Positions 33,261-37,613 of a DNA stretch of 40,583 bases are shown here, one piece after another (the stretch's first letter is position 1; the number at the start of each line of letters is the position of its first letter). The stretch is from Thermoplasmatota archaeon. Its GTDB lineage: Archaea; Thermoplasmatota; E2; DHVEG-1. Made by a program: the position numbers and the translations under genes. Location of the stretch: the NCBI GenBank assembly GCA_016936135.1, contig JAFGPP010000062.1, forward strand, positions 1 through 40,583. Direction: 5' to 3'. The notes beneath the pieces were generated by a model that made no database searches, was not told where the DNA came from, and saw only the letters and a list, made by a program, of their open reading frames with translations.

Positions 33261-33737
33261 ATGGAGTGTCCTTATTGTCATAATAACGAAACAAAAGTAA
33301 CCGATTCCAGAGACACTGGAGTATATACAATAAGACGTAGACGCGAGTGCCTAAACTGTAATCGTAGGTTTACTACTTACGAGTATATAGAAATTACACC
33401 AATATATGTGGTAAAAAAAGATGGAAGAAGAGAGAAATTTGATAGAAACAAGATCAAAAATGGTGTCATGAAAGCACTCGAAAAAAGGCCGGTGCCTCAC
33501 GAAAAAATCGATGAAATGATAGAATCTGTTGAGGATAAAATCAGAAAAACTGGTAAAGAAGAAATTGAAAGTAACGAGATAGGTGAATACGTAATGGATG
33601 CTTTAAAGGAAATCGATCATGTTGCGTATATACGCTTTGCATCTGTATATCGCAGCTTTGCTGATATTGAAAGCTTTGAAGAGGAAATTAAAAACCTTGC
33701 AAAACAAAACGTGATGGGGGAAAAGATTTCAAAATGA
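33261..33737 (+). CDS. nrdR: Transcriptional repressor NrdR
   Basis: MECPYCHNNETKVTDSRDT...IRRRRECLNCNRRFTTYEYIE plus ATP-cone. Confidence 0.96.
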   Translation: MECPYCHNNETKVTDSRDTGVYTIRRRRECLNCNRRFTTYEYIEITPIYVVKKDGRREKFDRNKIKNGVMKALEKRPVPHEKIDEMIESVEDKIRKTGKEEIESNEIGEYVMDALKEIDHVAYIRFASVYRSFADIESFEEEIKNLAKQNVMGEKISK

Positions 33738-36700
33738 TAAGAAAAATTAGAAAGAGAGATGGAAAAATTGCAGATTTCAATCCTGTCAAAATAACTGATG
33801 CGATCTGGAAAGCTGCTCAAGCCGTAGGTGGAAAGGATTACAGAAAAGCAGCCGAACTTACTGACAAAGTTTTAGAAATGCTTGGAAAAAACCTAAAAAA
33901 AGGAGAAATTCCCTCTGTCGAACAAGTTCAGGATACAGTTGAAAAAGTCTTAATTGAAGAAGGCCATGCTCGCACTGCCAAAGCCTATATTTTATATAGA
34001 AAGCAACATCAAGATATACGTGAAGTAGGTGGACTTCTCAAAGATATCGACGTTGTAGATGGATATCTTTCAATGATGGACTGGAAGGTAAACGAAAACT
34101 CAAACATGAGTTATTCCCTTCAGGGGTTAAACGTATATGCTACTGAGAATATTATTAGTAATTATTGGTTAAACAAAATTTACCCGCCAGAAGTTGGTAA
34201 AGCTCACAAAGATGGAGATTATCATTTGCATGATCTTGGTACACTCGGTGCATATTGTGTGGGCTGGGATTTAAAGGATATTCTTCTTCTAGGTTTTCGT
34301 GGAGTCTCGGGTAAAATTGAAAGCAAACCAGCAAAACACTTTGGAACTGCATTAATGCAGATAGTTAATTATTTGTATACCCTGCAGGGTGAAGCGGCTG
34401 GTGCGCAAGCTCTATCAAACTTTGATTCGCTTTTGGCTCCATTCATCCACTTTGATGGTCTAGACTATAAACAAGTCAAACAAGAAATGCAGAAATTTTT
34501 ATTCAATATGAACGTTCCAACTCGTGTAGGCTTTCAAAGTCCGTTTACTAATATTACAATGGATTTGACGGTTCCTTCCTATATGATAGAGGAACCAGCA
34601 ATAATTGGTGGAGAATTAAGAGATGAAACCTTCAATGATTTTGTTGATGAAATGAACATGATAAATCATGCATTTGCAGAAATAATGCATACTGGAGATG
34701 CAAAAGGAAGACCCTTTACCTTTCCAATTCCAACATACAATATAACAAAAGATTTTGACTGGGAAAGCGATGAACTTGCTCCTATATGGGAGATGACTGC
34801 TAAATACGGAATACCATATTTTTCCAACTTTATTAATTCAGATATGAAACCTGATGATGCTCGATCTATGTGCCCTCTCGCAGGAGACGAAAAAGTTTTA
34901 ATTAAATCATCAAGAGGCAGAGGAGTTGAATACTCTTCTATTAGAAATATCTTTGAAGGAAACGGGCATAAAGACGAATACGAGATTTACAGCAATGGAA
35001 AATTCATCAAAGGAAAATTCAATAAATGGGACAATCAAAAGATGCTTAATATCATTCTTGAAAACGGACATGAAATTAAAATGTCTCAATATCATCAAAA
35101 CTTCATTTTAAAAAATCCAAATGACGAAAATGAAATTGTATTGAAAGCAAAAGAATTGGAACCTGGTATGTATCTACCATATTCACTTAATGAATATGTT
35201 GGAGAAGGCGGCTCGGAGGAACTGGGCTATTTTGTAGGAGCCTATGCAGGAGATGGTTCATTAGATGGTGATGGTTCCGTAGTATTTTCTTTAGAAAAAG
35301 AACTAAAACCAGATGTCATTAAAAAACTTGAAAAAATTGCAATAGACCAGTTTGGTGCACACTGTACAATCAGTAATTATGATGGTAAAAAACTGACAAC
35401 TTTAAAGATACATTCTAAGGCTGCTGTAGGTTTATGCAGGGATTATGTTGCAGATAAACAAAGAGACAAACACTATACCTCTAGACTATTTACTTCCAGT
35501 AAAGAATTTAGAAAAGGAGTAATTCAAGGTCATTATGATACAGATGGAGGAAATAGAAACAGAATTTATACTTCTTCACCAAAAATGGTCGAAACATTAA
35601 ACATGTTAGCGGCAACAATGGGGACAACAACTAGTATTTATAAAGACGAACGAGAAGGAAGACTAGGAAAAGAACCAAACTATTCGGTTTTATTTTATCA
35701 ATTAAATAGACAAAACTATGGTGATATATGGTTTAAGAAACACGATAAATTATGGGTAAAAATAAAAGAAATTTTACCAATTAAAAATAGTAGTGCTTAT
35801 TGTTTTGAAGTTAAAGACGGTGAACCTGTTTTTACAGTTGGTACAACTGGTATTTTGACTCATAATTGTCGTCTTAGGCTTGATAACCGCGAACTTAAAA
35901 AAAGAGGAGGCGGTTTGTTTGGCGCAAATCCAAAGACTGGTAGCATTGGCGTTGTAACAATAAATATGGCTAGACTTGGGTATCTATCTAAAAATGAAAA
36001 AGATTTTTTCGAAAGACTTGATAATTTAATGGAATTAGCCAAAGAAAGCTTAATTATCAAACGTGAAGTAATTGAAAATCTAACTTTTTCAGGTCTGCAT
36101 CCATATTCCCGCTTTTATTTAAGTGATGTAAAGGAAACCTTTGGAGAGTTCTGGAAGAATCATTTCTCAACAATTGGTCTGATTGGAATGAATGATGGCT
36201 TGCTAAACTTTATGAACAAAAGTATTGGAGATCTTGAAGGTAAAAGGTTTGCAGAAAAAGTCCTTGATTATATGAGGGAGAAAATGGCAGATTTCCAGGA
36301 GGAAACCGGCGATATTTTTAACCTAGAGGCAACACCAGCCGAGGGCGCCAGCTATCGACTTGCAAGAATAGACAAGGCAAAATATCCGGAGATTAGAACA
36401 TACAATCAAGAGTATTACGGAAACGGCGGGCATATCGAACCATATTACACAAATTCCACACAACTTCCAGTAGGTTTCACTACAGATGTGTTTGAGGCCC
36501 TGGACTTACAAGATAGCCTGCAATCCAAATATACTGGTGGAACAGTTTTACACATATACTTGGGAGAAAACGAACCAAATCCAACGGCAACTAAAAAACT
36601 TGTAAGAAAAGTCTCTGAAAACTATTCATTGCCGTATTATACCATTACACCTACGTTTAGCATATGCCCAAAACATGGTTATATAGCAGGCGAACACAAA

Positions 36701-36766
36701 TATTGTCCAAAGTGTGATGAAGAAATTGGCTATAATAAAAAGGTTAAAGTAATTGCTAGGAGGTAA
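33734..36766 (+). CDS. nrdD: Anaerobic ribonucleoside-triphosphate reductase large part (ATP-cone + catalytic barrel + Zn motif), interrupted by an intein and lacking the glycyl-radical domain
   Basis: ATP-cone N-terminus; NVPTRVGFQSPFTN, CRLRLDNRELKKRGGGLFGANPKTGSIGVVTINMARLGYL; ends ICPKHGYIAGEHKYCPKCDEEIGYNKKVKVIARR* with no RVxGY motif. Confidence 0.95.
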   Translation: MIRKIRKRDGKIADFNPVKITDAIWKAAQAVGGKDYRKAAELTDKVLEMLGKNLKKGEIPSVEQVQDTVEKVLIEEGHARTAKAYILYRKQHQDIREVGGLLKDIDVVDGYLSMMDWKVNENSNMSYSLQGLNVYATENIISNYWLNKIYPPEVGKAHKDGDYHLHDLGTLGAYCVGWDLKDILLLGFRGVSGKIESKPAKHFGTALMQIVNYLYTLQGEAAGAQALSNFDSLLAPFIHFDGLDYKQVKQEMQKFLFNMNVPTRVGFQSPFTNITMDLTVPSYMIEEPAIIGGELRDETFNDFVDEMNMINHAFAEIMHTGDAKGRPFTFPIPTYNITKDFDWESDELAPIWEMTAKYGIPYFSNFINSDMKPDDARSMCPLAGDEKVLIKSSRGRGVEYSSIRNIFEGNGHKDEYEIYSNGKFIKGKFNKWDNQKMLNIILENGHEIKMSQYHQNFILKNPNDENEIVLKAKELEPGMYLPYSLNEYVGEGGSEELGYFVGAYAGDGSLDGDGSVVFSLEKELKPDVIKKLEKIAIDQFGAHCTISNYDGKKLTTLKIHSKAAVGLCRDYVADKQRDKHYTSRLFTSSKEFRKGVIQGHYDTDGGNRNRIYTSSPKMVETLNMLAATMGTTTSIYKDEREGRLGKEPNYSVLFYQLNRQNYGDIWFKKHDKLWVKIKEILPIKNSSAYCFEVKDGEPVFTVGTTGILTHNCRLRLDNRELKKRGGGLFGANPKTGSIGVVTINMARLGYLSKNEKDFFERLDNLMELAKESLIIKREVIENLTFSGLHPYSRFYLSDVKETFGEFWKNHFSTIGLIGMNDGLLNFMNKSIGDLEGKRFAEKVLDYMREKMADFQEETGDIFNLEATPAEGASYRLARIDKAKYPEIRTYNQEYYGNGGHIEPYYTNSTQLPVGFTTDVFEALDLQDSLQSKYTGGTVLHIYLGENEPNPTATKKLVRKVSENYSLPYYTITPTFSICPKHGYIAGEHKYCPKCDEEIGYNKKVKVIARR
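34874..35866 (+). other. Intein with LAGLIDADG (DOD) homing endonuclease, inside NrdD (about 331 aa; could start one codon earlier at Cys 34871)
   Basis: Block A-like PLAGDEKVLIK, LAGLIDADG-like LGYFVGAYAGDGSL and FRKGVIQGHYDTDGG, block F-like SAYCFEVKDGEPVFTVG, C-terminal GILTHN followed by Cys. Confidence 0.93.
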
Positions 36767-36769
36767 AAA

Positions 36770-36913
36770 ATGGAAAAAAATATTGAAGAAAAAAGAACAG
36801 AGTGCGAAGTCTACTCTCGAGTTGTTGGGTATCTAAGACCTGTTAAACAATGGAATCTTGGTAAACAACAAGAGTTTGAAGACCGTAAAGTATATGATAT
36901 GAAAGAAAAATAG
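36770..36913 (+). CDS. Stand-alone glycyl-radical domain of anaerobic ribonucleotide reductase (47 aa)
   Basis: Translation MEKNIEEKRTECEVYSRVVGYLRPVKQWNLGKQQEFEDRKVYDMKEK; RVVGYLRPVxxWNxGKxxEFxxR is the NrdD glycyl-radical signature; AGGAGGT Shine-Dalgarno at 36758-36764, ATG 36770. Absent from the supplied ORF track. Confidence 0.92.
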   Translation: MEKNIEEKRTECEVYSRVVGYLRPVKQWNLGKQQEFEDRKVYDMKEK

Positions 36914-36920
36914 GATCGAA

Positions 36921-37613
36921 ATGAAAATAGGTGGTTTTCAAAAAACTTCACTGCTGGATTATCCTGATGAAATTAGTGCAATTATTTGGACAATTGGCTG
37001 CAATTTTAACTGCCCTTTCTGCTATAATGCTGATCTTGTAAAGAAAACCGCTAGCATTATTTCTGAAGAAGAAATAATTAGTTTTTTAGAGAAAAGAAAA
37101 AATGTAATTGACGGGCTTGTAATTACTGGCGGAGAGCCATTTCTTCAGAAAGATATAGGCTTGTTTTGTGAAAAGGTTAAAAAAATAGGTTATAAAATAA
37201 AAATTGATACGAATGGTACTTTTCCTGAAAAACTAAAAGAACTTTTGGATAAAAAACTTGTGAACTATATTGCAATGGATGTAAAAGCACCAAAAAACAA
37301 ATACAAAAAAATCTCGGGCGTTGATGTTGACGTATCCAAGATTGATGAGTCCATTCAAATAATAAAGAACAATGTACCTGATTACGAATTTAGAACAACA
37401 GTAGTTCCAGGTTTGTTGGATTCCGAAGACATTGTTGAAATTGCTAAATGGTTGGACGGGTCAAAGAAATTTTACCTGCAACAATTTAAAGATGACGCTT
37501 TTCACCTATCTGAAAAATTTGATAATGTAAAACCATATGATGTTACAGAACTTGATCAAATGCTTCAAAAAATTAAGCCATATTTTAAAGAATGTTTCTT
37601 GAGAGGAACATAG
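36921..37613 (+). CDS. nrdG: Anaerobic ribonucleotide reductase activating protein (radical SAM)
   Basis: GGFQKTSLLDYPDEISAIIWTIGCNFNCPFCYN (CxxxCxxC), VITGGEPFLQ. Confidence 0.95.
   Translation: MKIGGFQKTSLLDYPDEISAIIWTIGCNFNCPFCYNADLVKKTASIISEEEIISFLEKRKNVIDGLVITGGEPFLQKDIGLFCEKVKKIGYKIKIDTNGTFPEKLKELLDKKLVNYIAMDVKAPKNKYKKISGVDVDVSKIDESIQIIKNNVPDYEFRTTVVPGLLDSEDIVEIAKWLDGSKKFYLQQFKDDAFHLSEKFDNVKPYDVTELDQMLQKIKPYFKECFLRGT

Follow-up and report, generated by a model that had tools for sequence, protein, structure and literature searches.

A Pro1 intein within the Cys pair of an archaeal NrdD and its probable class-3-like splicing

The nrdD intein and its junctions

The window analysed here is contig JAFGPP010000062.1 (40,583 nucleotides), from a Thermoplasmatota archaeon whose archaeal assembly (GCA_016936135.1) comprises 1.71 Mb in 153 contigs and is 86% complete. 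It contains an open reading frame (ORF) of 1010 amino acids at 33734-36766 of the + strand, which PRK08270, TIGR02487, PF13597 and the ATP cone (PF03477) identify as the anaerobic ribonucleotide reductase NrdD. This ORF has one in-frame insert with intein signatures, and its junctions, marked here by slashes, read DDARSMC/PLAGDEKVLIK...GILTHN/CRLRLDNREL. The intein has 331 amino acids, from Pro1 to Asn331 (34874..35866, +), and lies between Cys380 and Cys712. The N-extein (33734..34873, +) holds the ATP cone and the first part of the catalytic barrel (PF03477, PF13597, PRK08270/TIGR02487) and ends at Cys380 (Cys -1; 34871..34873, +), the first Cys of the MCCR motif, and the C-extein (35867..36766, +) begins with Cys+1 (35867-35869), which is Cys712, the second Cys of that motif. 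An earlier note, made from the sequence alone, had located the intein at 34868-35869; the intein is indeed there, but this span is longer by the preceding Met-Cys and the following Cys+1.

The register was set by intein-free orthologs. Matches of these same-family relatives to the window NrdD stop at residue 380 and restart at residue 712 on contiguous bases, and all 27 intein-free family loci read SMCCRL (as ARSMCCRL or SRSMCCRL), which is restored when residues 381-711 are excised from the window NrdD. Because all 27 orthologs read in this way, the junctions are SMC/P...N/CRL and residue 1 is Pro, as the earlier note had proposed. As Cys380 stands directly before Pro, the junction can also be written with Cys380 as a normal Cys1 followed by Pro2, which would give a product with one Cys (SMCRL). 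The earlier note had named single-Cys orthologs as what would overturn its reading; none was found, and we rejected this register, to which we give almost no credence, on the 27 two-Cys orthologs. Loss of either Cys of the equivalent SCCR motif is fatal to the activity of Thermotoga maritima NrdD, in which Cys380 corresponds to the essential Cys329 (PMC4493059), and this also argues against a single-Cys product. Furthermore, block A needs no additional residue to align in the Pro1 register (PLAGDEKV in the window, ALAYDEPI in KlbA and PLALNTEV in a class 3 terminase intein), and relatives inserted at the same site read SxC/C...N/C, so that the Pro of the window intein replaces their Cys1. The insertion point is therefore flanked on either side by a Cys whose counterpart T. 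maritima NrdD needs for activity, in line with the suspicion that an active-site Cys was the target. The SCCR or MCCR motif defines the NrdDh-type class III ribonucleotide reductases, with MCCR found in the subgroup NrdDh4 (PMC4493059), and the SMCCRL of the 27 orthologs makes the host enzyme NrdDh-type.

The remaining splicing residues are as the earlier note had read them. Position A:1 is Pro (34874..34876, +), which is not a nucleophile. A Pro at residue 1 makes the N-S/O shift impossible, so the N-to-S shift of class 1 cannot start splicing, and the candidate nucleophiles that remain are Cys F:4 and Cys+1. Block B, placed by alignments and a residue tally, is S-Q-Y-H-Q-N (35084..35101, +, within MSQYHQNF), with Ser at B:7, His at B:10 and, at B:12, Asn where class 3 has Trp. 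Block F reads SAYCFEV, with Cys at the usual Asp position F:4 (35801..35803, +), and block G ends in Thr-His-Asn (G:5-G:7; 35858..35866, +). In the 30 loci of the window's phylum that scored highest, recognisable intein ends nearly always have Asp at F:4 and Val, Ser or Leu at G:5, and none combines Cys F:4 with Thr G:5; these ends were extracted with regular expressions, which also picked up noise frames.

The intein also contains a LAGLIDADG-type homing endonuclease region (35225..35554, +), with motif 1 GYFVGAYAGDGSLDG at 35225-35269 and motif 2 RKGVIQGHYDTDGGN at 35510-35554. The match of PF14528 to this region is below its curated cut-off, and intein models in general match the window intein mostly below cut-off (those of Pfam only below). 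The two motifs are accompanied by a matching fold (TliVMA intein and I-DmoI by Foldseek), which identifies the element as an endonuclease-bearing intein. Its AlphaFold2 model reached a predicted local distance difference test score (pLDDT) of 90.0 and a predicted template modelling score (pTM) of 0.90, and the top solved-structure matches were endonuclease-bearing inteins, the best being TliVMA (TM 0.75). A sequence search of the PDB with the intein alone gave one chance match only.

Inteins at the same NrdD site

Inteins with Pro1 occur at the same NrdD site in archaea (Thermoplasmata, Aenigmatarchaeota, Diapherotrites and Methanomicrobia), in bacteria (Dojkabacteria, Falkowbacteria, Magasanikbacteria, Nealsonbacteria and others) and on viral contigs, with organisms named as in the titles of the draft-genome records. 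The 21 distinct complete members, the window intein counted, share without exception Cys-1, Pro A:1, His B:10, Cys F:4, Thr G:5, His G:6, Asn G:7 and Cys+1, and three partial members have Pro1 as well. Position B:12 is Asn in the 18 full-length inteins and Gln in the three mini-inteins that lack the endonuclease (L056, L057 and L088), and never Trp. Block B reads S/TxxH in the full-length members and D/ExxH in the minis, with Asp at B:7 in two of these three. The model of mini-intein L057 is a HINT domain (pLDDT 82) nearest to archaeal class 1 inteins, with no preference for class 3. Pro1 inteins are rare, as they were found in 4 of 293 genomes (counting its own) in a sample of the window's phylum and in 2 of 380 of the phylum of L046; searches for further mini-inteins in Cloacimonadota (1 of 125) and Desulfobacterota (1 of 345) brought up none beyond those already known. 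The family was not described in the literature searched, and members may figure in a published list of 1701 class 3 inteins. A Pro1 homolog from Magasanikbacteria (L053, 5001-5828), near a contig end, lacks a stretch that includes block B and may be a damaged copy or an assembly error.

We have also found inteins with Cys1 at the same point of NrdD, in two phage records and many IMG/VR contigs, reading SxC/CF...THN/CRL. The 43 distinct ones tallied, all on phage or viral contigs, are a new observation. Cys1 and Cys F:4 are present in all 43 and Thr G:5 in 42, so that Cys F:4 is invariant across 64 distinct same-site inteins. Like the window intein, these relatives (e.g., L062, L118 and L094) are inserted between the two Cys of S/MCCR and have THN and Cys+1, and the full-length ones carry a homologous endonuclease; two of them, L094 and L126, sit in MCCR-type NrdD. 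They differ from it in having Cys at residue 1, which leaves an ordinary class 1 start open to them, and mostly Thr at B:7 (TxxH in block B). Trp B:12 is found in two, L118, which thus has Cys1 together with the complete Trp-Cys-Thr (WCT) triad, and L103, in which Trp and Cys are joined by Val instead of Thr at G:5.

According to profile comparisons, the Pro1 group has its nearest relatives in these Cys1 inteins: the match between the two full-length profiles (E 4e-60, 320 columns) is far stronger than that of Pro1 to class 3 (E 4.5e-13) or of full-length Pro1 to the KlbA intein (E 0.0024, 12% probability). A tree of the splicing blocks without columns A:1, B:12, F:4 and G:5 united Pro1 and Cys1 inteins with support values of 95/82 and set ten class 3 references apart (100/97), and the full-length tree did the same (98/87 and 100/100, respectively). 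The class 3 references were picked by similarity to the N-terminal sequence of the DnaB1 intein; the first DnaB1 seed and the KlbA sequence were verified against PDB 6bs8/6rix and 2jmz, respectively. The earlier suggestion of an intermediate or variant splicing class thus gains support from same-site Cys1 inteins that share Cys F:4 and Thr G:5.

Splicing chemistry and origin of the Pro1 group

We infer that the window intein is probably a functional, class-3-like mobile intein of an NrdDh-type NrdD, in which Cys F:4 attacks the Cys-Pro bond, and that it probably derives from a class 1 ancestor with Cys1. His B:10 would assist the attack of Cys F:4 on the Cys(-1)-Pro1 peptide bond to give a block F branched thioester, the acyl group would move from Cys F:4 to Cys+1, Asn331 would cyclise and an S-to-N shift would restore SMCCRL. 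The chemistry would thus be class-3-like with Asn replacing Trp at B:12. The intein most likely arose when a same-site ancestor that had Cys1 along with Cys F:4 and Thr G:5, a type kept in phage NrdD genes, lost its Cys1. The first attack in class 3 inteins is made by Cys F:4, a role that the natural Cys+1 of Bvi IcmO was unable to take over (PMC5222942), and the AceL NrdHF intein splices by the class 3 route without Trp B:12 (PMC7891396). These two precedents lead us to prefer the block F route over a direct attack by Cys+1.

Several points weigh against this proposal. Cys F:4 is just as invariant in the same-site Cys1 relatives, so its conservation alone is no proof of a nucleophilic role, and the class 3 Trp B:12 is absent from all Pro1 inteins. 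Approximately unbiased (AU) tests left a union of Pro1 with class 3 unrejected (p 0.24 and 0.20), and likewise a union of Pro1, Cys1 and class 3 (p 0.36). Finally, the proposed direction from Cys1 to Pro1 is a matter of parsimony from class 1 outgroups, the trees being unrooted: the class 1 references carry Ser, Thr or Cys at A:1, save L038, whose start is uncertain, and loss of Cys1 is accordingly the simpler direction.

A class-2-like mechanism, in which Cys+1 directly attacks the Cys(-1)-Pro1 bond and Cys F:4 merely assists in place of the usual Asp, appears rather unlikely. It would agree with the invariant Cys+1, as in class 2 (PMC4031507), and with the presence of Cys F:4 in the Cys1 relatives too, where it could be a family-wide helper. 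However, class 2 so far comprises orthologs of the KlbA intein, which have Ala1 and Ser G:6 (PMC4031507), whereas G:6 is His in the window, the KlbA intein is not closely similar to the Pro1 profile and the failure of Cys+1 in Bvi IcmO speaks against the same substitution here. The same chemistry could also have another ancestry, with the window intein belonging to the class 3 clade proper and having lost Trp B:12, but we consider this improbable. Two of the ten class 3 references (L065 and L066) also have Pro1, the Asp B:7 of two mini-inteins is the usual class 3 residue and ∼6% of class 3 inteins under the operational definition deviate at the Trp (PMC7891396), all of which, together with the AU results, would suit such an ancestry. 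Against it, the best trees set class 3 apart and place Pro1 with the same-site Cys1 inteins, to which the profile match is also far stronger. As the AU tests reject no union with class 3, an ancestry separate from class 3 is favoured, short of proof.

That the intein is instead decaying, with poor or absent splicing, has very little probability. The homolog without the block B stretch indicates that some copies may be damaged, and the Pfam matches below cut-off would fit with decay, but the reading frame is intact, the splicing residues are invariant in 21 members and the host enzyme is essential, no other ribonucleotide reductase having been found in the genome. Moreover, the rate of nonsynonymous substitution (dN) is well below the synonymous one (dS): the pairwise values for L040-L043 are 0.028 and 0.30, respectively, and several pairs with the window intein gave dN/dS of 0.07-0.13, with dS near saturation. 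These values indicate that the intein is under purifying selection.

Judged by its residues, the window intein is class 3 under the operational definition, which asks for no Cys at the N-end and Cys at C2:4 (= F:4) (PMC7891396), and is not class 3 under the WCT definition (PMC5222942). As in the class 3 inteins MP-Be DnaB, Mch/Msm DnaB1 and Bvi IcmO, there is no nucleophile (Ser, Thr or Cys) at residue 1, sometimes Pro in that class, and Cys F:4, Thr G:5, His B:10 and the terminal His-Asn are present; Bvi IcmO shares Cys+1 as well. It differs from them in Asn rather than Trp at B:12, in Ser rather than Asp at B:7 (DxxH in block B is typical of class 3; PMC12245125), in the hosts of the Pro1 group, which are class III ribonucleotide reductases of archaea and candidate-phylum bacteria, and in the placement of this group outside the class 3 clade, which is statistically not decisive. 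The AceL NrdHF split intein, of class 3 with a Met-Cys-Thr triad, also lacks Trp B:12, has a non-nucleophilic residue 1 and resides in a ribonucleotide reductase gene; however, it is split, belongs to a class Ib NrdF, has Ala1 and Met B:12 and misses two conserved His, whereas the window intein is contiguous, bears an endonuclease domain and keeps His G:6. With the class 2 Mja KlbA intein it shares an archaeal host, Cys+1 and the absence of a nucleophile at residue 1, but Mja KlbA has Ala1, Ser G:6 and Asp F:4, is found in another host gene and has no close sequence similarity. The Cys, Ser or Thr at A:1 that marks class 1 is absent from the window intein and present in its same-site Cys1 relatives.

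The surroundings of nrdD and the meaning of the intein family

The gene order in this genome is nrdR, nrdD, a glycyl-radical ORF and nrdG. The nrdR gene (33261-33737, +; TIGR00244, 194 bits) lies directly upstream of nrdD and overlaps it, and the gene for the NrdD activase (nrdG, 36921-37613; TIGR02495) lies downstream. Between nrdD and nrdG there is a separate ORF of 47 amino acids (36770..36913, +), preceded by AGGAGG, which holds the NrdD glycyl-radical motif RVVGY (positions 530-562 of Pfam NRDD, 41.8 bits) and is separated from the main NrdD by one stop, TAA. This part is fused to NrdD in most relatives, and it is also split off in L020, L021, L022, L029 and L030 and, in other phyla, in L041, L046, L049 and L051; the literature searched contained no account of a split NrdD. 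A PF02867 search of the 86%-complete assembly found no class I/II ribonucleotide reductase, which leaves NrdD as the sole reductase found. About seven further NrdD intein sites are present in L045, L042, L010, L036, L037 and L051, always with Ser, Thr or Cys at residue 1, and a Thr1 intein at GAY/CVGW recurs in several of these loci.

How an intein can lose its first nucleophile and retain splicing is the question that the same-site NrdD family addresses. Class 3 inteins have been regarded as a single phage-derived lineage with Trp-Cys-Thr. A direct origin of class 3 from class 1 or class 2 has also been judged unlikely, in part because an engineered conversion did not succeed (PMC7664689). 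We tentatively suggest, as a possibility that we hold with some doubt, that in this family class 1 gave way to a class-3-like state for a second time and independently, with Cys F:4 and Thr G:5 in place beforehand, Cys1 replaced by Pro and splicing kept without Trp B:12. If this is true, L118, in which Cys1 stands beside a full WCT triad, would represent an intermediate that still exists, contrary to the published view on the origin of class 3. With Asn or Gln at B:12, the family represents an additional sequence type, and it shows that such inteins occur in archaea and candidate-phylum bacteria, within an essential anaerobic enzyme. As natural Cys1 and Pro1 versions at one site share Cys F:4 and Thr G:5, the change could be replayed by single mutations in homologous proteins, and the two groups would offer a natural before-and-after set for the evolution of an unusual splicing mechanism.
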